The position numbers and the translations under genes are program-made. A model generated the notes under the pieces. It searched no databases. It had not been told where the DNA came from and saw nothing but the letters and a program-made list of their open reading frames with translations. From Flavobacterium omnivorum (GTDB lineage: Bacteria > Bacteroidota > Bacteroidia > Flavobacteriales > Flavobacteriaceae), in the NCBI RefSeq assembly GCF_900099915.1, contig NZ_FNDB01000001.1, positions 310,001 through 374,000 of the forward strand: a stretch of DNA of 64,000 bases, given 5' to 3'. Shown here in pieces: positions 27,161-53,572 of the stretch (position 1 is the stretch's first letter; the number at the start of each line of letters is the position of its first letter).

Positions 27161-28159
27161 ATGTATCATAAAATTAGAATTTTTGCTGCGCTATTCTTTA
27201 TATCTCATTATTCTTTTTCACAAGAAGGAATTCCGGTTTATTCTGATTATTTGTCAGATAACTATTATTTGATACATCCTTCCATGGCTGGTGCTGCAAA
27301 TTGCGCTAAAATTAGGCTAACTGGTCGGAAACAGTGGTTTGATCAGGAAGATGCTCCAGAATTGCAAACCCTTAGTTTTAATGGTAGGGTAGGAGAAAAT
27401 GCAGGAGCAGGTGTTATTCTTTTTAACGATAAAAACGGTTATCATTCCCAAAAAGGAATTAAATTTACTTACGCCTATCATTTAATGTTTTCCAGAGATG
27501 AAATTGATTTGAACCAATTGTCATTTGGTATCAGCGCGGGTTTTATTCAAAGCCAGCTAGACGAAACTGAATTCAGACAATCGGGTGATTTTGATCCAAT
27601 TATTGATGGAACTATAGTGCAGAAAGATGCTTATTTTAATGTTGATGTTGGTGCTTCTTATAATTTTCTGGATTTTTATGCACATGCTACAGTAAAAAAT
27701 GCGATAGAGACAAGAAGAGATATTTACACAGAATATGAAAGTGATAATTTAAGGAAATATTTATTGAGTGCAGGATATATCTTTGGGGATCGTGATCGAA
27801 TATTATGGGAACCATCTCTTTTATTTCAAATGGTAGAAAAAACTAGAGAAAAGGCGATTGATATTAATTTGAAAGCATATAAAAATCTTGATTTTGGACG
27901 AGTTTGGGCCGGATTGTCCTACCGAAGAAGTTTTGATGGGGCCGAATTTTTGGTTGGCAATACAATTTCTAATCAAAAATTACAGTATATCACACCTATT
28001 GTTGGAGTTAATTTTGATAAGTTTATGTTTGCTTACACCTATTCTCAATTGTCCGGAGCCGTTAAGTTTGATAACGGTGGTTATCACCAAATCACTTTAG
28101 GAATCGATTTATTTTGCAGACCTGTAAAATACGATTGTAACTGTCCAGCAATTAATTAA
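27161..28159 (+). CDS. PorP/SprF family type IX secretion membrane protein
   Basis: A 332-residue outer-membrane barrel protein with a signal peptide (MYHKIRIFAALFFISHYSFSQ). The start of the mature part (GIPVYSDYLSDNYYLIHPSMAGAANCAKIRLTGRKQWFD) is the family signature. PorP/SprF proteins work with the T9SS, often in secretion or surface anchoring of a neighbouring adhesin such as SprB. No adhesin gene is next to it here; a gamma carbonic anhydrase gene follows after 14 bases. The partner is therefore unknown. Confidence 0.9.
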   Translation: MYHKIRIFAALFFISHYSFSQEGIPVYSDYLSDNYYLIHPSMAGAANCAKIRLTGRKQWFDQEDAPELQTLSFNGRVGENAGAGVILFNDKNGYHSQKGIKFTYAYHLMFSRDEIDLNQLSFGISAGFIQSQLDETEFRQSGDFDPIIDGTIVQKDAYFNVDVGASYNFLDFYAHATVKNAIETRRDIYTEYESDNLRKYLLSAGYIFGDRDRILWEPSLLFQMVEKTREKAIDINLKAYKNLDFGRVWAGLSYRRSFDGAEFLVGNTISNQKLQYITPIVGVNFDKFMFAYTYSQLSGAVKFDNGGYHQITLGIDLFCRPVKYDCNCPAIN

Positions 28160-44863: not shown

Positions 44864-44973
44864 CGTTAAGTAGCTTTGAAAACACTTTAAAAATTCAAAT
44901 AATTATAAAAAAGACGTTATCTGATAATTATATCGAATGGCAATCAAGAACTAAAATAAAAACAAACAAAACT

Positions 44974-45453
44974 ATGGAGCATAATAACAGAGAATCAAAG
45001 AACAAGCCTTACGCAAAATTTGCCCTAATAATGGCCGTTTCATTTATACTCATGTATCTGATAATGTTTTTAAATGTTGCTGAATTCAGTCATATTTATA
45101 ATAGTATTACTCGTTTTTAAATGACTACTTTAATGATTGCGGTAATGACCGTCAGTATGTTACTTTTCATGTGGAAAATGTACCCAAATACTAAAATTAA
45201 TTTTGCAATAATAGTCTTTGCTACTTTTACATTTTTTGGAACATTTTATCTTTTAAGAACACAAACTTTTATTGGAGACGTACAATATATGAAAGCTATG
45301 ATTCCTCATCATTCATCCGCCATCATGACAAGTAGTAATGTAGATTTTAAAGATCCAGAAGTCAAAAAATTAGCTGAAGATATAATTGCTGCTCAAGAAA
45401 GAGAAATTAAGCAAATGAATGAAATGATTATTCGTCTCGAAAGCAAAAAGTAA
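44974..45453 (+). pseudogene. DUF305 membrane protein gene split by an in-frame TAA
   Basis: The frame from the ATG at 44974 encodes 48 residues (MEHNNRESKNKPYAKFALIM and a hydrophobic segment ending SHIYNSITRF) and stops at TAA (45118-45120). In the same frame, without any gap, the next 110 residues (MTTLMIAVMTVSMLLFMWKM ...) complete the protein: two more membrane segments, then the DUF305 signature YMKAMIPHHSSAIMTS with its His pair. Intact relatives, as I recall them, read ...LTRTYM across this site, so a Tyr codon has become TAA. The C-terminal part could be restarted at TAAATG, so some function may remain. DUF305 proteins occur in copper loci. Confidence 0.8.
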
Positions 45454-45457
45454 TAAA

Positions 45458-46018
45458 GTGAAAATTTATATAAAAAACATGGTTTGTGGCCGTTGTGAAA
45501 TGGCCGTTTCGGCAGAGTTGGAAAAAATGGGGCTTTCTATTCTTGCGATGCAATTAGGGGAAGTAGAAATTAGAAGTGATTTGGACGAAAGTCAAGTGCA
45601 ATTGCTGTCAAAAAACCTGAGCTTACTTGGTTTTGAACTATTAGATGATAAGGAAAATAAGACTGTCGAAAGGATTAAAAATTTAATAATTGGCTTGGTA
45701 CATTATAAAAAGGAACAACTGAAAGGTAATTTGTCAAATTATTTAGCCGCAGATTTAAGGCAGGATTATAGTATTTTGAGTAAGCTATTTTCAGAAAAAG
45801 AGGGGGCAACAATCGAACATTATTTTATTGCTCAAAAAATTGAACGGGCAAAAGAACTATTAATCTACAACGAAATGACGTTAAGTGAAATTGCATTCCA
45901 GCTGAACTATAGTAATGTGGCGCATTTAAGTAATCAATTCAAAAAAACTACTGGTTTTACCCCGACCCATTTCAAGCAATTGAAGGATAAAAATAGAAAA
46001 CAGCTCGATGAATTGTAA
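45458..46018 (+). CDS. AraC-type regulator with an N-terminal HMA-like metal domain
   Basis: A 186-residue protein starting at GTG, 4 bases after the DUF305 frame. Residues 1-65 resemble a ferredoxin-like HMA domain with CxxC (MKIYIKNMVCGRCEMAVSAE). Residues about 118-180 are a complete AraC/XylS double helix-turn-helix (YFIAQKIERAKELLIYNEMT, then SEIAFQLNYSNVAHLSNQFKKTTGFTP). A regulator that binds a soft metal directly through CGRC is the obvious reading, with the adjacent copper genes as targets. I have seen similar short AraC proteins near CopA in Bacteroidota, but ligand and sites are not established. Confidence 0.85.
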   Translation: MKIYIKNMVCGRCEMAVSAELEKMGLSILAMQLGEVEIRSDLDESQVQLLSKNLSLLGFELLDDKENKTVERIKNLIIGLVHYKKEQLKGNLSNYLAADLRQDYSILSKLFSEKEGATIEHYFIAQKIERAKELLIYNEMTLSEIAFQLNYSNVAHLSNQFKKTTGFTPTHFKQLKDKNRKQLDEL

Positions 46019-46104: not shown

Positions 46105-48903
46105 ATGAAACATACCTTTACCATTACCGGAATGAGTTGCGATGGTTGTCGCAGCAAAGTGGAGAAAACACTGAATGCTATTGATGGGGTTGAAGCTGTT
46201 GTTTCATTAGAGCCATCATTAGCAACCATCACAATGGAAAAACATATTCCTACTACACAGTTGCAAGAAGCCATAGCTGCTGCCGGGAATTATTCTATTG
46301 AGATAAGCAAGCCGGTAGCTGCTGAAGAAAAAACTATCGAGGGGCCAGCTGGGAAATCTTGCTGCGGTACTCCAATAGGTCAACAAAACAAAAACAGTAA
46401 TCAACATCATAAAGACGAAGCCAAGATACCCGAGAATAAGGCAGGAAAATATTATTGCCCTATGCATTGCGAAGGCAATAAAGTATATGACGAACCGGGT
46501 GATTGTCCCGTTTGCGGAATGCATTTAGTAAAAGAACCCGAATTGAGTTCAACCAATGTTGCAGCTGATGAAAAAGCGGAAGAGCCAGTTGCGAAATCGT
46601 GCTGTGGTACTCCAACACATCAACACGAGAAAGGCAGTCACCATCATATAGAGGAAACAGACATCCCCAAGAATGCGGCAGGAAAATATTATTGTCCCAT
46701 GCATTGCGAAGGGGAGAAAGTATATGGCAAAGCGGGAGATTGTCCTGTTTGCGGAATGGATTTGGTAAAAGCACCCGATTTAATTCCCGCAAAAACAATG
46801 TACACTTGCCCCATGCATCCTGAAATAATCCAGGAAGGGCCGGGTTCCTGTCCGATATGCGGAATGGATTTAGTACCTATGGAACCTAGCGAAAGCGAAG
46901 ATAACAAGACGTATCTTGACTTAGTGCGTAAAATGAAAATTGCCGTTGTTTTTACGCTGCCTATTTTTATCATTGCGATGTCAGAAATGATACCTAATAA
47001 TCCTTTGATGAAATTAATGGATATGTCAAGTTGGAATTGGGTACAGTTTGGATTATCACTTCCCGTGGTTTTTTATGCGTGTTGGATGTTTTTTGTGCGT
47101 GCCTGGAAGTCTCTAATTACATGGAATTTAAATATGTTTACGCTCATCGGAATCGGTTCTGGGGTCGCTTTTCTATTTAGTGTATTTGGCCTGTTTTTTC
47201 CGGAACTTTTTCCAAATGAATTCAAAACAGAAGGCGGAACAGTGCATCTGTATTTTGAAGCAACAACGGTAATCCTAACTTTAGTTTTGCTGGGTCAGCT
47301 TTTAGAAGCCAAAGCACATAGTAGAACCAGCGGAGCGATAAAAGAATTGTTGAAACTGGCTCCAACCGAAGCCACTTTGGTGATTGATGGAAATGATAAA
47401 GTAATCTCCATTCATGATATAAAAAAAGGGGATTTGTTACGGGTGAAACCGGGAGATAAGATACCGGTAGATGGGAAGATTACCGATGGAGAAAGTACGA
47501 TTGATGAATCCATGATATCGGGAGAACCTATTCCCGTTGACAAAAAGATTGATGATTCCGTTATTGCCGGAACCATAAACGGCAACAAATCATTTGTGAT
47601 GATTGCCGAAAAAATAGGTTCAGAAACGGTACTTTCGCAAATTGTGCAAATGGTAAATGATGCGAGTCGTTCCAGAGCTCCAATTCAAAAACTAGCTGAT
47701 AAAATTGCCAAATATTTTGTGCCAATAGTTGTTATTACTTCAGTAATCACTTTTTTTGTTTGGGCAAAATTTGGACCGGAACCTGCATTGGTTTACGGAT
47801 TTATTAATGCGATTGCGGTATTAATTATTGCCTGTCCTTGTGCTTTGGGATTAGCCACGCCAATGTCAGTGATGGTGGGTGTAGGGAAAGGAGCCCAATC
47901 TGGAGTGTTGATAAAAAATGCGGAAGCCCTGGAAAATATGAACAAAGTAAATGTTCTGATTACCGATAAAACAGGAACAATTACGGAAGGAAAACCTTCT
48001 GTAGAGAAAGTATTCGCTATAAATAATGATGATGATTCTTTATTGCAAAGCATCGCTTCTCTAAATCAGTACAGCGAACATCCTTTGGCGCAAGCCGTAG
48101 TCAATTTTGCGAAAGCTGCAACCGTTTCATTAATCGAAGTGAAGGATTTTGAAGCGGTTTCTGGAAAAGGGGTTACAGGTACGGTAACCAATAAAAAAGT
48201 AGCGCTGGGAAATAAAAAATTGATGGAACAAGTGAGCGCTACAGTTTCGCCCGAACTGGAAAATCAGATTATCGCTGAGCAAAAATTAGGTAAAACAGTT
48301 TCCTATATTTCAGTTGACGGAATTGCAGCGGGGTTTGTGTCGATAACGGATGCCATAAAACCAACAAGTGTCGAAGCCATAAAAGAATTAATACGTCAAG
48401 GTGTTGAGGTGATTATGATGACGGGTGACAATGAAAATACGGCAAAAGCAGTCGCTCAGGAATTGCATTTAAGTTCTTATAAAGCGGGTTGTTTACCAGA
48501 AGATAAACTCAAAGAAATTAAACGACTACAATCCGAAGGGAAAATTGTAGCCATGGCGGGGGACGGAATCAACGATGCTCCTGCTTTGGCGCAAGCCGAC
48601 ATAGGCATTGCTATGGGAACCGGAACGGATGTAGCTATTGAAAGTGCTAAAATTACGTTGGTAAAAGGCGATTTACAAGGAATAGTTAAGGCCAAGAATT
48701 TAAGCCACGCGGTTATGAAAAATATTAAACAAAATTTATTCTTTGCCTTTTTCTATAATGTATTGGGAATTCCAATTGCTGCGGGAGTTTTGTATCCGTT
48801 TTTTGGAGTTTTGCTCTCGCCAATGATAGCTGCTTTGGCAATGAGTTTTAGTTCGGTTTCTGTCATCGCAAATGCATTAAGATTACGAAGTTTAAAGCTT
48901 TAA
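46105..48903 (+). CDS. copA: Copper-translocating P1B-type ATPase with one HMA and three HMBD modules
   Basis: A 932-residue pump. Residues 1-68 are an HMA domain (GMSCDGCRSKVEK). Three HMBD modules follow at about 115-142, 194-221 and 233-258 (each YxCPMH...CPxCGM), the first two within a tandem duplication that also repeats KSCCGTP and a His-rich spacer. Then come eight membrane segments with the metal-site CPC (IACPCALGLATP, about 576-578), the phospho-acceptor Asp in DKTGT (about 621), SEHPLAQAV, MTGDNENTA and GDGINDAPAL. It exports Cu(I) (or Ag(I)) from the cytoplasm using ATP. Only one HMBD is usual. Confidence 0.95.
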   Translation: MKHTFTITGMSCDGCRSKVEKTLNAIDGVEAVVSLEPSLATITMEKHIPTTQLQEAIAAAGNYSIEISKPVAAEEKTIEGPAGKSCCGTPIGQQNKNSNQHHKDEAKIPENKAGKYYCPMHCEGNKVYDEPGDCPVCGMHLVKEPELSSTNVAADEKAEEPVAKSCCGTPTHQHEKGSHHHIEETDIPKNAAGKYYCPMHCEGEKVYGKAGDCPVCGMDLVKAPDLIPAKTMYTCPMHPEIIQEGPGSCPICGMDLVPMEPSESEDNKTYLDLVRKMKIAVVFTLPIFIIAMSEMIPNNPLMKLMDMSSWNWVQFGLSLPVVFYACWMFFVRAWKSLITWNLNMFTLIGIGSGVAFLFSVFGLFFPELFPNEFKTEGGTVHLYFEATTVILTLVLLGQLLEAKAHSRTSGAIKELLKLAPTEATLVIDGNDKVISIHDIKKGDLLRVKPGDKIPVDGKITDGESTIDESMISGEPIPVDKKIDDSVIAGTINGNKSFVMIAEKIGSETVLSQIVQMVNDASRSRAPIQKLADKIAKYFVPIVVITSVITFFVWAKFGPEPALVYGFINAIAVLIIACPCALGLATPMSVMVGVGKGAQSGVLIKNAEALENMNKVNVLITDKTGTITEGKPSVEKVFAINNDDDSLLQSIASLNQYSEHPLAQAVVNFAKAATVSLIEVKDFEAVSGKGVTGTVTNKKVALGNKKLMEQVSATVSPELENQIIAEQKLGKTVSYISVDGIAAGFVSITDAIKPTSVEAIKELIRQGVEVIMMTGDNENTAKAVAQELHLSSYKAGCLPEDKLKEIKRLQSEGKIVAMAGDGINDAPALAQADIGIAMGTGTDVAIESAKITLVKGDLQGIVKAKNLSHAVMKNIKQNLFFAFFYNVLGIPIAAGVLYPFFGVLLSPMIAALAMSFSSVSVIANALRLRSLKL
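46319..46785 (+). repeat. Tandem duplication within copA (about 79 residues)
   Basis: Two consecutive segments share AA-EEK-like linkers, KSCCGTP, a His-rich spacer, IPxNxAGKYYCPMHCEG and GDCPVCGMxLVKxP. The second copy starts 237 bases after the first. The duplication supplies an additional HMBD module. Confidence 0.75.
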
Positions 48904-49093: not shown

Positions 49094-49543
49094 ATGAAAA
49101 TAATATTAGCAACCGATGGTTCGCCTTTTAGTTTAGCAATGGTCAAAGATTTTGCTCATTGGACTTTACCTCTAAATACAAAAGTAAAAATCATCTCAGT
49201 TTATGATGGAGATACTCTTATGAATGTGGCTCCAATGGGAGTTTTAACGGAATATTACGACGATGCTAATATGAATTCTTTGCAATTTGCAGAGAAGTCT
49301 GTAGCTGCAGCAGCGGAAATTATTAGAAATAAAAATCCTGAACTTGCAGTTTTAACGCAGGCAATAGAGGGAGTTCCTAAAACTGTTATTGTTGATGAAG
49401 CGGAAAAGTTTGGCGCTGATTTAATTGTTCTTGGATCGCATGGTTATGGTCTTATCGACCGTCTTTTATTAGGATCGGTTTCACAGTCCGTTGCACTTCA
49501 TGCAAAATGTTCTGTTGAAATTGTTCGTAAAAAAACAATATGA
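49094..49543 (+). CDS. Universal stress protein (UspA family)
   Basis: A 149-residue single-domain protein. It starts MKIILATDGSPFSLAMVKDF and carries the ATP-binding pattern GSHGYGLIDRLLLGSVSQSV near the end. UspA-type proteins of this class bind ATP and respond to stress; a specific role in metal stress is suggested only by its location between copA and the Met-rich genes. A 190-base gap separates it from copA and a 201-base gap follows, with nothing recognised in either. Confidence 0.9.
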   Translation: MKIILATDGSPFSLAMVKDFAHWTLPLNTKVKIISVYDGDTLMNVAPMGVLTEYYDDANMNSLQFAEKSVAAAAEIIRNKNPELAVLTQAIEGVPKTVIVDEAEKFGADLIVLGSHGYGLIDRLLLGSVSQSVALHAKCSVEIVRKKTI

Positions 49544-49744
49544 AAGTGCAATCGTAGTGTAATAGAAAAAGTGCAAGTGATTTTCTACTAAGAAAAGAAT
49601 GAAATTCGGTTCGTTGACTAGCCTTAATTTTGAATAAAAATAGGAAGTGATTATATAAATTTTTTTCAAAATTCAACAAGGTTTTTTCGTTTTAAAACGC
49701 AGACCTTTATTGGGTTAATAGTTTTAACAAATAAATTCAATATC

Positions 49745-50365
49745 ATGAAAACAGCACAAAAAATTATATTATCGATTGGGTTAATTGGCCTTCTATATTC
49801 CTGTCAGTCAACCAATCAGGTTCTCTCAAAGTCAAATAAGAGAATGGAAATTATGAATGAGATTGCTAATAATGAAAGTATGTCTAAAGAGATGATGGGT
49901 ATACTTATGAACAGCAAAAGTGGTATGATGATGATGCAGGAGAAAGAAAAGGAAATGATGAAAGATAGTCAAGCGAAAATGAGGACAATGATGAAGGAAA
50001 ATCCCTAATTGATGAAAAGTATGATGTCAGAAATGATGAAGAATAATCCAGAAATGATGAAAGAGAATCATGCTAAAATGATGGTAATAATGAAGGAAAA
50101 TCCGGAAATGATGAAAGGTATGATGTCCGAAATGATGAAAGGAATGAAGGATAATCCCGAAATGATGAAAAGTATGATGGCAAACATGATGGAATTATCA
50201 AAAGGAGATGATGCTATGATGTCTGGAATGTGCAAAGAGATGATGGATAGTCCCGAGATGATGAAAATGATGGAAACAATGAAAGGTAAAAAAATGGACA
50301 TGAAAAAAATGAAAACGATGAATAAAAAACCAGAAAAGAAAGAAGATCATAAAGCGCATCATTAA
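49745..50365 (+). pseudogene. Met-rich lipoprotein gene split by an in-frame TAA
   Basis: The first part (87 residues) has a lipoprotein signal (GLLYSC) and Met-rich repeats (SGMMMMQEKEKEMMKDSQAK). It stops at TAA (50006-50008) after KENP. The same frame continues without a gap for 118 residues (MMKSMMSEMMKNNPEMMKEN and so on, ending in a His/Lys tail). In intact repeats the sequence after KENP is EMMK, encoded GAA ATG ATG; here it reads TAA TTG ATG. A restarted product would lack a signal and stay in the cytoplasm. The intact ancestor would be a periplasmic Met-rich copper-binding lipoprotein of about 205 residues. Confidence 0.75.
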
Positions 50366-50395
50366 TATTTAATCTAACCACAAGCTTAAAGAATC

Positions 50396-50536
50396 ATGTT
50401 AAATAACGGTAACGGAGAAATGCATATGGGAGAATATTCTTTCATGGGAATGAATCCATTTTGGTTAATTTTAGTAATTGTGCTGCTTCTTTTTGCGTTG
50501 GTAATGTTAAACCGATTTAGAAAAAATAATAATTAA
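50396..50536 (+). CDS. Small membrane peptide with Met-rich head (first paralogue)
   Basis: A 46-residue protein: MLNNGNGEMHMGEYSFMGMN, then PFW, one membrane segment (LILVIVLLLFALVML) and a basic end (NRFRKNNN). It lies between the Met-rich pseudogene and the multicopper oxidase, 13 bases before the latter. The peptide at 53284, directly after the oxidase, has the same plan and shares M.M..YSFMGM..FW. Two copies flanking the oxidase argue that both are real genes. Methionines on the outer face could bind Cu(I); this is inference. Confidence 0.65.
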   Translation: MLNNGNGEMHMGEYSFMGMNPFWLILVIVLLLFALVMLNRFRKNNN

Positions 50537-50549
50537 TTCAAAATTTAGA

Positions 50550-53165
50550 ATGTTAAAAATGAGAATAATACTAATAGTTTTGATTCTGTTTATTGGTACT
50601 TTTGTGCAAGCGGAAAATAGCAATGACAGAAATATTTCCAGAAAAATGGCTATTCAACAGGTACAGCCTGTAACCTATACTTGTGTAATGCATCCTGAAA
50701 TTCATGCTACTAAACCCGGAAAATGTCCTAAGTGTGGTATGGATTTGATTAAAGAAAAGGCACAACCAGAAAAAAAACCGGTGCAGAAGAAACAAGCGTC
50801 AAAGCCAATAGTGAAAACAGCGGTTTCAGTAAAAGCAAAACCTGTTGAGTCTAAAGCAGCAACAGAAGATTTCCACGGTAATCATGCTACTGTTTCTGCA
50901 ACCAATACGACTGTCAAAGAGGGGATTGTTAAGAAATTAGTTAAAAGTGCGCCGTCAAGAACGGTTCGCTACGACCTACATGTTCGCGATACGATTGTTA
51001 ATTTTTCAGGGAAAGAAAAAAGAGCCATTGCAGTAAATGGACAAATTCCTATGCCTACATTAACTTTTACCGAAGGTGATACAGCCGAAATTCATGTTTA
51101 CAATCATTTGAAGGAGTCTACCTCTTTGCACTGGCATGGTTTAATGTTGCCCAATAAAGAAGATGGTGTGCCTTTTTTGACGCAAATGCCTATTGAACCA
51201 GGAGCGGAATTTGTGTATAAATTCCCAATAATTCAATCAGGAACACACTGGTACCACAGCCATAGTGGTTTGCAAGAGCAAATAGGAATGTACGGTTCTA
51301 TGATTTTAAATAAAAAATCAGATGATCCAACCTTTAGAAATGGAATAGATGATATTCCGCAAATCCCAGTAATTTTAAGTGAATGGACCGATTATAAACC
51401 TGAGAATGTGCATCGGATGTTGCACAATGCTTCCGATTGGTTTGCTATTAAAAAAGGAACCACGCAAAGTTATGCCGAAGCTATTAAAGCAGGACATTTT
51501 CAAACCAAATTAACCAACGAATGGAAACGTATGTTGGCCATGGATGTGAGTGATATCTACTATGATAAATTTCTAATAAACGGACAGAATGAAAGTCAAC
51601 TCTCGCAATTTAAAGCAGGTGATAAAGTACGTTTACGAATTTCTAATGGTGGCGCCTCATCTTATTTTTGGTTAAACTATGCCGGTGGAAAAATGACTGT
51701 AGTGGCTAATGATGGAAATGATGTTGAACCTTTAGAAGTGGATCGATTAATCATTGGTGTTTCTGAAACCTATGATGTCATTGTTACAATTCCTGCTGGA
51801 AATGCTTCGTATGAATTTTTAGCTACACCCGAAGACAGAACTAAATCAACATCAATTTATATTGGTCAAGGGATTAAACAATTAAGTAGTCCAATGCCAA
51901 AACTAAAATATTTTGAAGGCATGAAGATGATGAATAACATGATGAATATGGACGGAACTATGAATGACATGGGAATGGACATGTCTATGCAAAAAATGGA
52001 TATGAATACGGTGATGTATCCAGAAATAGTTGGGGCTGCAGACAAGAAGCCAATGAAAATGGATGCTGGAATGGACCATTCTAAATCGGACAAAGAGCCA
52101 ATGAAAATGGATGCTGAAATGGAGCATTCAAAACATGTAATGAATGGAGATATCACTACCTTGAATTATGGAATGCTAAAATCGCCTACGAAGACTACAC
52201 TTGACAAAAACGCTCCTGTTCGAGAAATACGGTTCGAATTAACAGGGAATATGAATCGGTATGTGTGGAGTATGGATAATAAAGTACTTTCAGAAGTAGA
52301 TAAAATTTTAATTAAAAAAGGAGAAATTGTTCGCATCACGTTGTTCAATAATTCCATGATGCGTCACCCAATGCACTTACATGGACACGATTTTAGAGTG
52401 TTAAACGGACTAGGGGACTACGCTCCATTAAAAAATGTATTGGATATCATGCCTATGGAAACAGATGTGATTGAATTTGCAGCAAATGCTGATGGAGACT
52501 GGTTCTTTCATTGTCACATTCTCTATCACATGATGGCAGGTATGAATAGAGTGTTTAGCTATGAAAATTCGCAACTAAACCCCTACTTACCAAATAAAGC
52601 AGTAGCCTATAAAAAGTTGCAATCAGAAAGTAACGGATTGCATTTTATGGCTGAAAATGATTTTGCTACTAACGGAAATGATGGGCAAGCAATGGTACAA
52701 AGTGCGCGTTGGAGTTTTGCTACAGAATGGCGCTTAGGATATAATGATGATCATGGTTATGAATCAGAAACACATATAGGTAGATACATTGGAAGAAATC
52801 AATGGTTTATGCCCTTTATTGGTTTTGATGCTCGATACAGAAAGCTAGGTTATAATGAAGTAGAGAAAAATATTTTTGGTCAAAAAAGTACTAAAGACCA
52901 ACGTATTCAAGTAAGTTTAGGTTTTAGTTACACACTGCCACTACTAATAATTGCGCAAGCTGAAGTATATCATGATGGAAATATAAGAATGCAGTTAATG
53001 CGAGAAGATATTCCAGTTGCAAAACGCTTGAGAATGGCCTTTATGGTTAATACTGATAAAGAATACATGGCAGGATTAAAATACATTATTGGCAAAAATC
53101 TTGGAATCACCACCCATTATGATAGTGATATGGGAGTGGGTTTTGGGTTGAATGTCAATTATTAA
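50550..53165 (+). CDS. Multicopper oxidase with N-terminal HMBD and C-terminal barrel-like domain
   Basis: An 871-residue secreted protein. After the signal peptide (IILIVLILFIGTFVQA) comes an HMBD module (about residues 45-68, CVMHPEIHATKPGKCPKCGM). The laccase-type core has all four copper motifs: HWHGLML, HWYHSHSG, HPMHLHGHDFRVL and HCHILYHMMAGM (about 653-664, type-1 ligands with Met). A Met/His-rich loop with duplicated KEPMKMDAxM units lies at about 470-535. From about 715 to the end there is a CopB-like outer-membrane-type segment (WSFATEWRLGYNDDHGYESE ... GITTHYDSDMGVGFGLNVNY). It probably oxidises Cu(I) to Cu(II) in the periplasm. The three-part fusion is notable. Confidence 0.9.
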   Translation: MLKMRIILIVLILFIGTFVQAENSNDRNISRKMAIQQVQPVTYTCVMHPEIHATKPGKCPKCGMDLIKEKAQPEKKPVQKKQASKPIVKTAVSVKAKPVESKAATEDFHGNHATVSATNTTVKEGIVKKLVKSAPSRTVRYDLHVRDTIVNFSGKEKRAIAVNGQIPMPTLTFTEGDTAEIHVYNHLKESTSLHWHGLMLPNKEDGVPFLTQMPIEPGAEFVYKFPIIQSGTHWYHSHSGLQEQIGMYGSMILNKKSDDPTFRNGIDDIPQIPVILSEWTDYKPENVHRMLHNASDWFAIKKGTTQSYAEAIKAGHFQTKLTNEWKRMLAMDVSDIYYDKFLINGQNESQLSQFKAGDKVRLRISNGGASSYFWLNYAGGKMTVVANDGNDVEPLEVDRLIIGVSETYDVIVTIPAGNASYEFLATPEDRTKSTSIYIGQGIKQLSSPMPKLKYFEGMKMMNNMMNMDGTMNDMGMDMSMQKMDMNTVMYPEIVGAADKKPMKMDAGMDHSKSDKEPMKMDAEMEHSKHVMNGDITTLNYGMLKSPTKTTLDKNAPVREIRFELTGNMNRYVWSMDNKVLSEVDKILIKKGEIVRITLFNNSMMRHPMHLHGHDFRVLNGLGDYAPLKNVLDIMPMETDVIEFAANADGDWFFHCHILYHMMAGMNRVFSYENSQLNPYLPNKAVAYKKLQSESNGLHFMAENDFATNGNDGQAMVQSARWSFATEWRLGYNDDHGYESETHIGRYIGRNQWFMPFIGFDARYRKLGYNEVEKNIFGQKSTKDQRIQVSLGFSYTLPLLIIAQAEVYHDGNIRMQLMREDIPVAKRLRMAFMVNTDKEYMAGLKYIIGKNLGITTHYDSDMGVGFGLNVNY

Positions 53166-53283
53166 TCACACTCAGAACGTGTTTTTCTAAAATACGAGCT
53201 TGAGTATTGCTTTGAAAAGAGGTGCAAAATCTCAGTACAATTATAACCGCAGGAGCACTATATCTTGCTAATACGATAAAATT

Positions 53284-53421
53284 ATGAATACTACAGGACA
53301 TGAAGGAATGCTCATGGATGGCTACTCATTTATGGGAATGCATTGGTTTTGGTGGGGCTCTATCTTGATTTTTGCACTTATACTATTAGCAGCAGCACAT
53401 CTCTACAAAAAAAGAAAATAA
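53284..53421 (+). CDS. Small membrane peptide with Met-rich head (second paralogue)
   Basis: A 45-residue protein: MNTTGHEGMLMDGYSFMGMH, then WFWWG, a membrane segment (SILIFALILLAAAHL) and a basic tail (YKKRK). It follows the multicopper oxidase by 118 bases and is a paralogue of the peptide at 50396. Both carry YSFMGM before an aromatic cluster. Function unknown; a role in copper passage or in anchoring the oxidase at the membrane is inferred from location only. Confidence 0.65.
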   Translation: MNTTGHEGMLMDGYSFMGMHWFWWGSILIFALILLAAAHLYKKRK

Positions 53422-53572
53422 TCTTAAAGAAAAACTGGGAATATTATTTCAGTAAAAAAAATTACCCGCGGACTACTAAAAGTAATTGATAATTTGCAAT
53501 TTTTACTCAGTAAGTTCAATAGAGTTTGAAATTATTAATTTAAATATTGCATTTGTTTCGAGCGTCTAATTT

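Follow-up and report, generated by a model that had tools for sequence, protein, structure and literature searches.

Small accessory proteins of copper operons are a known kind of gene product, and several of the accessory cop genes of Cupriavidus metallidurans pMOL30 are very small. The pMOL30 genes (copK, copO, and others) lie with copA in one copper cluster (PMC7563307); CutF (PMC8456105, PMC9973294) and CruR (PMC9426467), DUF2946 proteins, act as copper-responsive leaders in the cutFOG and bp2923-bfrG-bp2921 operons, respectively; and the SHOCT-domain proteins (PF09851; PMC3581485) are small membrane proteins. Here we consider a copper locus of Flavobacterium omnivorum in which two small genes, for peptide 1 and peptide 2, stand directly before and after a multicopper oxidase (MCO) gene; a preliminary description called them unannotated, but the sequence analyzed carries no annotation at all. 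The window is the whole stretch of DNA that was analyzed, 64,000 nucleotides of contig NZ_FNDB01000001.1 (assembly GCF_900099915.1, positions 310,001 to 374,000, forward strand). Judged from sequence, the peptides form a real micropeptide family of the known kind just named; we found no description of it among open-licence PMC papers, and the main text of one on the copper genes of the cold-living Bizionia argentinensis (PMC11213822) does not contain "small," "SHOCT," or "hypothetical protein."

Results

The preliminary description of this stretch had reported two open reading frames (ORFs) of 46 and 45 codons flanking the oxidase and sharing a motif, a single membrane helix, and a basic tail, and all of these features were recovered (Table 1). 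Both ORFs are on the strand of the MCO, peptide 1 ending 14 bp upstream of it and peptide 2 starting about 118-119 bp after its end. Each peptide has one hydrophobic stretch (residues 22-38), with no lysine or arginine before it and three or four after it; the tail of peptide 1, RFRKNNN, is more weakly basic than the RFRKRK of relatives. The two align with 11 identities over 21 residues (E = 3e-5 in a single comparison). The codon pattern for Y-(S/C/T/W)-F-M-G-M has exactly two matches in the whole genome, which are the two peptides, and the reversed pattern has none. With two mismatches allowed, the window contains three matches, including an unrelated one at 27443, and the expected number is 0.59. 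At least three matches also turned up in 4 of 100 shuffles, which makes this control weak when taken alone; conservation is the stronger test. Pfam and NCBIfam scans of the two peptides gave only matches below the cut-offs (best E 0.037 and 0.11), the Pfam ones being two unrelated matches for peptide 1 and none for peptide 2. An AlphaFold2 model of peptide 1 has a helix at residues 21-45, with residues 1-20 unstructured and of low confidence.

The family consists of peptides of about 45 residues with a Met/His-rich N terminus (M.M..Y.FMGM), a single membrane helix, and a lysine/arginine tail. We searched for it with a profile because YSFMGM alone is too unspecific: over 199 genomes of the genus the exact pattern occurred at 21 places in 16 genomes, of which 6 places in 5 genomes were the true peptide (G000, the window's own genome, twice; G017, G019, G142, and G147) and the other 15 were other proteins or frames, and the reversed pattern matched in 3 genomes. 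The profile had six rows: four from G142, G017, G019, and G147 and two from the window, whose own recovery is therefore built in. At E <= 1e-4 it found the family in 28 of 398 Flavobacterium genomes drawn from the larger genus, a lower bound, as at most 18 candidate frames were scored per genome. Thirty-five copies were counted, 33 in 29 fetched stretches and the 2 in the window; 1 of the 36 profile places was left out (G045:C1:1422805, E 2.8e-5, inside an 87-aa ORF). Locus-scan matches weaker than E 1e-11 also stand outside the 35, including decayed upstream remnants of G497 and G591 (E about 1e-3).

Conservation within the family runs through the motif and into the helix. Residues M1, M9, Y14, F16, M17, and G18 are invariant in 25 representatives, and H10, M11, F22, W23, I27, and L32 are kept in at least 90% of them. 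The ratio of nonsynonymous to synonymous substitution rates (dN/dS), computed for the 45-residue copies and the window's and only for pairs with dS of 0.05-2, was below 1 in 268 of the 268 retained pairs (median 0.27); the family is under purifying selection. On these comparisons the two ORFs are real, paralogous, and conserved genes for micropeptides predicted to lie in the membrane.

The host range is narrow. When GTDB contigs were scanned for the pattern MHMxxYxFMG, 20 stretches were returned and 19 relatives confirmed; every one of the 19 is in a record titled Flavobacterium, and many of these loci come from the same genomes as those already counted. The species include F. frigoris, F. xinjiangense, F. 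gillisiae, F. degerlachei, F. hiemivividum, F. urumqiense, F. xueshanense, F. sinopsychrotolerans, F. xanthum, and F. fryxellicola, and many of these, to judge partly by their names, are cold living. At the family level, a profile (A1) matched 28 of 299 genomes at E <= 0.01, including the window's own. Most of the other matches proved to be pieces of large ORFs or broken frames; those that appear real are three loci of a group that we name group B and SHOCT-type proteins. Outside the genus only distant kin were seen (the group B peptides and the N-terminal part of SHOCT proteins). A profile of group B itself matched 4 of the 299 genomes at E <= 0.001, three of which had built the profile.

The peptides occur in copper operons. 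Neighboring genes were called by BLAST to proteins of the window or of stretch L007, so only those gene kinds are visible, and the copies of G512 and of G534 contig 28 lie less than 1.2 kb from a contig end, so absences there say little. A copper-operon gene (MCO, CopA, lipoprotein, or DUF302) lies within 6 kb of 34 of the 35 copies, the exception being that of G661. CopA is the most constant neighbor (30/35 within 6 kb); a Met-rich lipoprotein gene, in some cases only a fragment, lies at most 200 bp upstream of 20 copies, and DUF302 lies within 150 bp of 12. The typical order is DUF305, AraC/HMA regulator, CopA, universal stress protein (Usp), Met-rich lipoprotein, peptide, and then DUF302, MCO, or both; many genomes lack some of these parts.

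Linkage with the oxidase, which the preliminary description had proposed as the check on its idea, was borne out in part. An MCO of at least 200 aa on the same strand lies within 500 bp of 20 of the 35 copies (14 with the peptide before the MCO and 6 with it after) and within 6 kb of 26; the other 9, one of them at a contig end, have none within 6 kb. Thus neither a lack of conservation outside this genome nor a lack of linkage with MCO genes was found. By genome, a close MCO (E <= 1e-120) is present in 225 of the 398 and in 24 of the 28 with the peptide (Fisher p = 0.0012), and the Met-rich lipoprotein (E <= 1e-12) is present in 24 of the 398, 19 of which are peptide genomes (p = 2e-21), both tests ignoring kinship. 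On this evidence, the peptide tracks the lipoprotein module more closely than the oxidase.

For comparison we took 20 MCO loci without the peptide, hand-picked from the upper part of the MCO match list; they come from 19 peptide-less genomes and, in G045, from its second MCO. Profile matches at these loci reached no better than E 0.08 at Z=1000, and neither a peptide relative nor a Met-rich lipoprotein was called in the neighborhood of the MCO; in 6 of the loci CopA ends at most 40 bp from the MCO. Ten other small hydrophobic ORFs that a loose Met/His rule picked out at the peptide-less loci all lack the motif. Two of the ten, which are Met/Ile-rich and may be readings of another gene out of frame, lie on the MCO strand 240-270 bp downstream of the MCO (L144 8783-8914 and L149 8618-8770). 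A plasmid search gave 8 records with part of the 3856-base query and none with 80% of it; in two plasmids the genes listed between CopA and MCO, in an incomplete gene table, are none in one and DUF3347 plus a 110-aa hypothetical protein in the other.

The arrangement on both sides of the oxidase is rarer than the linkage. It was seen in 4 of the 28 peptide genomes (G000, G521, G589, and G668), and 27 of the 35 copies lie outside any such flanking pair. Closely related loci show how it may have come about in the window. In G497 and G591, the MCO is followed by a lipoprotein-peptide-DUF302 module. The window aligns by blastn with both (stretches L086 and L088, respectively) through lipoprotein 1 and the MCO (49739-53165), and window segments 53268-53455 (peptide 2 with the beginning of DUF302) and 53471 onward (the end of DUF302, then the FMO gene) are about 340 bp apart in L088. 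Between MCO and peptide 2, G497 and G591 have about 1.3 kb, comprising a copA 3' fragment and a second lipoprotein, and in G568 a lipoprotein likewise lies there. Over the matched core, the MCOs of these three genomes share 95-97% identity with that of the window; the MCO of G568 has no upstream peptide, and in G497 and G591 peptide 1 and lipoprotein 1 are decayed (many stops; remnant ORF) beside an MCO that is open and 95% identical over the matched part. In L086 (7557-7859) and L088 (10099-10191), a DUF305-start piece like window 44901-45140 and the copA 3' fragment precede the second module, the pattern that in situ truncation of a second copper operon would leave.

The layout would then consist of two tandem module tails, [lipoprotein 1-peptide 1-MCO] and [lipoprotein 2-peptide 2-DUF302], and the loss of lipoprotein 2 and most of DUF302 in the window would have left peptide 2 adjoining the MCO. 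The DUF302 scar places the deletion in the window's own line, and for lipoprotein 2 a loss is the simpler reading, backed by the three relatives. A tree of the peptides, made from 45 columns and with 19 of 32 inner branches open, is used here only for its starred sets. Peptide 1 falls in one of them (95/91; 6 rows) with peptides of G668, G521, G570, and G589, and peptide 2 in another (99/97; 7 rows) with peptides of G497, G591, G568, G528, G019, and G686. The second peptides of G521, G668, and G589 are outside the set of the window's peptide 2. Because the sets differ between genomes with the same layout, the layout may have arisen repeatedly, or the second peptide may have been replaced, which leaves some room for selection. 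In the window, the flanking layout appears to be mostly an accident of operon history and not a dedicated sandwich.

Table 1. Genes and gene remnants of the copper locus, numbered from the first letter of the window
Feature	Position	Strand	Basis or remark
DUF305 membrane protein gene	44974..45453	+	In-frame TAA 45118-45120
AraC-family regulator, HMA-like N-terminal half	45458..46018	+	Pfam HTH_18, 3.7e-15
CopA-type metal P-type ATPase, HMA and three HMBD stretches	46105..48903	+	Pfam
Universal stress protein (Usp)	49094..49543	+	Pfam PF00582, 1.3e-22
Met-rich lipoprotein gene (lipoprotein 1), LLYSC near N terminus	49745..50365	+	In-frame TAA 50006-50008
Peptide 1, 46 aa	50396..50536	+	ORF and profile family; clade mostly directly 5' of MCO
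Multicopper oxidase, 871 aa	50550..53165	+	Pfam HMBD, Cu-oxidase_3, Cu-oxidase, Cu-oxidase_2
Peptide 2, 45 aa	53284..53421	+	ORF and profile family; clade includes lipoprotein-peptide-DUF302 modules
DUF302 scar: 5' end (EYYFSK) and 3' end (VIDNL) of the gene, lacking about 340 bp in between	53436..53500	+	blastn vs L088

The DUF305 relatives in L080, L081, L082, L088, and L097 are 159-160 aa long without a stop, and lipoprotein 1 matches an intact relative with a single TAA inside the match. Because DUF305 and lipoprotein 1 are broken, lipoprotein 2 and DUF302 are lost, and the relatives are open, the evidence suggests that the copper operon is eroding in the window's genome or that the assembly contains errors. 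The N-terminal half of the AraC-family regulator matches HMA (0.088) and a CopZ model (0.0026), both below the cut-off; for 23 of the 35 peptide copies, a relative of this regulator is encoded on the peptide's strand at a distance of at most 8 kb.

The MCO has an N-terminal HMBD, three cupredoxin domains (PF07732, PF00394, and PF07731, all above the cut-off), and a C-terminal tail of about 180 aa; its best NCBIfam family is the CopA/PcoA-type TIGR01480 (393.6 bits, below the cut-off of 478.95). Such oxidases carry the copper-ligand motifs HxH, HxH, HxxHxH, and HCHxxxH, and the motif His and Cys residues 194, 196, 236, 238, 606, 609, 611, 654-656, and 660 are invariant in 16 aligned MCOs. The AlphaFold2 model has a mean predicted local distance difference test (pLDDT) score of 44, and its best 50 Foldseek matches are laccases and other multicopper oxidases with a query TM score of 0.14-0.18. 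In the tail (residues ~690-871), the model draws 12 strands from residue 698 at low confidence; the tail had no Pfam match and a single PDB sequence match (E 1.4) and is a possible fused envelope domain.

Discussion

What might these peptides do? Lysine and arginine are absent before the hydrophobic stretch in 30 of the 35 copies, and three to seven of them follow it in all 35, from which we infer, by the positive-inside rule, an N-out/C-in topology. This would put the Met/His motif (MHM..YSFMGMH) at the periplasmic face of the membrane, a usual setting for Cu(I) ligands. CopA would deliver Cu(I) to the motif, and the peptide would hold it at the periplasmic face and pass it to the Met-rich lipoprotein and, where an MCO is present, also to the MCO, which oxidizes it. 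We put the probability that the peptide is such a Cu(I)-holding inner-membrane accessory, between CopA and the periplasmic lipoprotein or MCO, at about one half. In the spread of the motif itself, Met content and the oxidase go together: copies with at most one Met in residues 2-20 (those of G117, G554, G661, and G665, and one in G589 beside a broken lipoprotein) have no MCO within 6 kb in 5 of 5 cases, whereas the same holds for 4 of the 30 Met-rich copies (p = 0.0004, without correction for kinship).

Several observations weigh against this proposal. The association of Met with MCO rests on few events, 3 of the 5 Met-poor copies being one starred clade. MCO genes are mostly without the peptide, so it cannot be a general requirement for oxidation. 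No lipoprotein match was obtained in 9 of the 28 peptide genomes. A lipoprotein relative that is shorter and matches less well (E 3e-16 to 8e-13) is present in five peptide-less genomes (G031, G178, G524, G597, and G629); in four of the five it lies 0.7-1.2 kb downstream of the MCO core, so that such a lipoprotein can occur without the peptide. Both window peptides are intact although lipoprotein 1 is interrupted and lipoprotein 2 is gone, which is not what a strict hand-over partnership would lead one to expect, 45 codons being, however, a small target. Finally, G521, G668, and G589 share the sandwich, a recurrence that could also reflect selection for the layout.

The chief rival reading, which we consider unlikely yet worth keeping in view, makes the peptide a small regulatory or stabilizing subunit of the CopA ATPase and the MCO a mere neighbor. 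Other P-type ATPases have small subunits of this sort, the KdpF or phospholamban-type peptides. The constancy of CopA beside the peptide is what one would expect of a subunit, as are the peptides of G045, G117, G554, and G665, which follow CopA with no MCO within 6 kb, and the persistence of helix and tail after the loss of the Met motif in G117, G554, G661, and G665. Against this, there is no CopA within 6 kb of 5 of the 35 copies (L091, L100, L102, L103, and L108, two of them near a contig end), and the 20 peptide-less MCO loci, most with CopA near the MCO, show no relative of the peptide.

The preliminary description had read peptide-enzyme-peptide as a functional unit, and we do not follow it there. 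It is quite improbable that the arrangement is a selected unit in which the two peptides form a hetero-oligomeric membrane platform serving the oxidase: the layout is not seen in 24 of the 28 genomes (two contig-end copies being uninformative), the near-identical MCOs of G497, G591, and G568 have an intact peptide downstream only, and the window's own arrangement has a visible history of deletion. The possibly several origins of the layout, given that the window's peptide 2 set excludes G521, G668, and G589, speak for selection. Least probable is that the upstream peptide is a copper-sensing leader whose translation controls the next gene, like CutF of R. capsulatus and CruR of B. pertussis. 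In favor of this are the published precedent (PMC8456105, PMC9973294, and PMC9426467), the short distance from peptide 1 to the MCO start, and the 14 upstream copies. Against it, Cys is absent from 33 of the 35 copies and occurs once in each of the other 2, none of the 35 contains PP, there is no DUF2946 match, conservation begins at residue 1 and continues into the helix, and in 6 cases the peptide gene is downstream of the MCO. In CutF a structured junction masks the start codon region of the following gene; the five peptide-MCO junctions that were folded showed no unusual RNA structure (z scores of -1.07 to +0.30), though a short helix could be missed.

Returning to the reading of the peptide as a membrane holder of Cu(I), one may venture a wider form of it, which we advance tentatively and think doubtful as a whole. 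The peptides (M.M..Y.FMGMHxFWW, helix, RYRKRK) would be an undescribed micropeptide class that relays Cu(I) on the periplasmic side of the inner membrane together with CopA, the Met-rich lipoprotein, and DUF302/MCO; they would be stripped-down kin of the GMHxxWW SHOCT proteins; and paralogues would have been repeatedly recruited to both sides of the oxidase in one Flavobacterium species group.

Genes of such small size are easily skipped by gene finders. The analysis yields a family whose motif can be tested, whose operon is defined, and whose hosts form a narrow group; the near-identical MCOs with and without an intact upstream peptide offer a natural comparison. The family would also give functional work a first point of entry to the GMHxxWW half of some SHOCT proteins and to the pair formed by DUF302 and the Met-rich lipoprotein.

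Comparison with known systems

With the pMOL30 cluster, which belongs to another phylum, the Flavobacterium loci share the presence of many accessory genes in a single copper cluster with copA. CutF and CruR resemble the peptides in being encoded by short ORFs in copper-related operons, in cutFOG before the MCO gene, but they carry a Cys copper motif (CxxxC/CXXC) and a proline-rich, stalling-like C-terminal motif that the peptides lack.

The SHOCT proteins are nearer in sequence. The N-terminal GGMHxIWW and helix of six Flavobacteriaceae examples align with the peptide profile over 35 columns (hhalign 95.3%, E 2.3e-8); the GMHxxWW and single-helix part was matched in those six and is not a trait of the whole SHOCT family. 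SHOCT proteins go on to a C-terminal SHOCT domain (E 2.9e-8 and 5.3e-8 in the two scanned), whereas the peptides stop after the lysine/arginine tail: PF09851 is absent from the window's two, and the L080 representative has no Pfam family. SHOCT-type proteins with a GGMHxIWW membrane N terminus were seen at L109 10753-10989, L112 9106-9357, L113 9365-9586, L114 9696-9914, and L115 10520-10738, that of L109 lying 1.4 kb from a group B micropeptide and near HMA-like genes.

The group B micropeptides (GYYYWGMHMGWW, 39-41 aa), from other Flavobacteriaceae (G235, G476, and G486), differ from the peptides in having GMHMGWW in place of the N-terminal M.M..Y.FMGM and no close MCO beside them. They align with the peptide profile over 36 columns (hhalign 98.0%, E 2.2e-13), and their surroundings show the same likeness: lipoproteins with a weak likeness to the Met-rich one (26-35% identity) are present at two of the three loci, and one of the three has DUF302.

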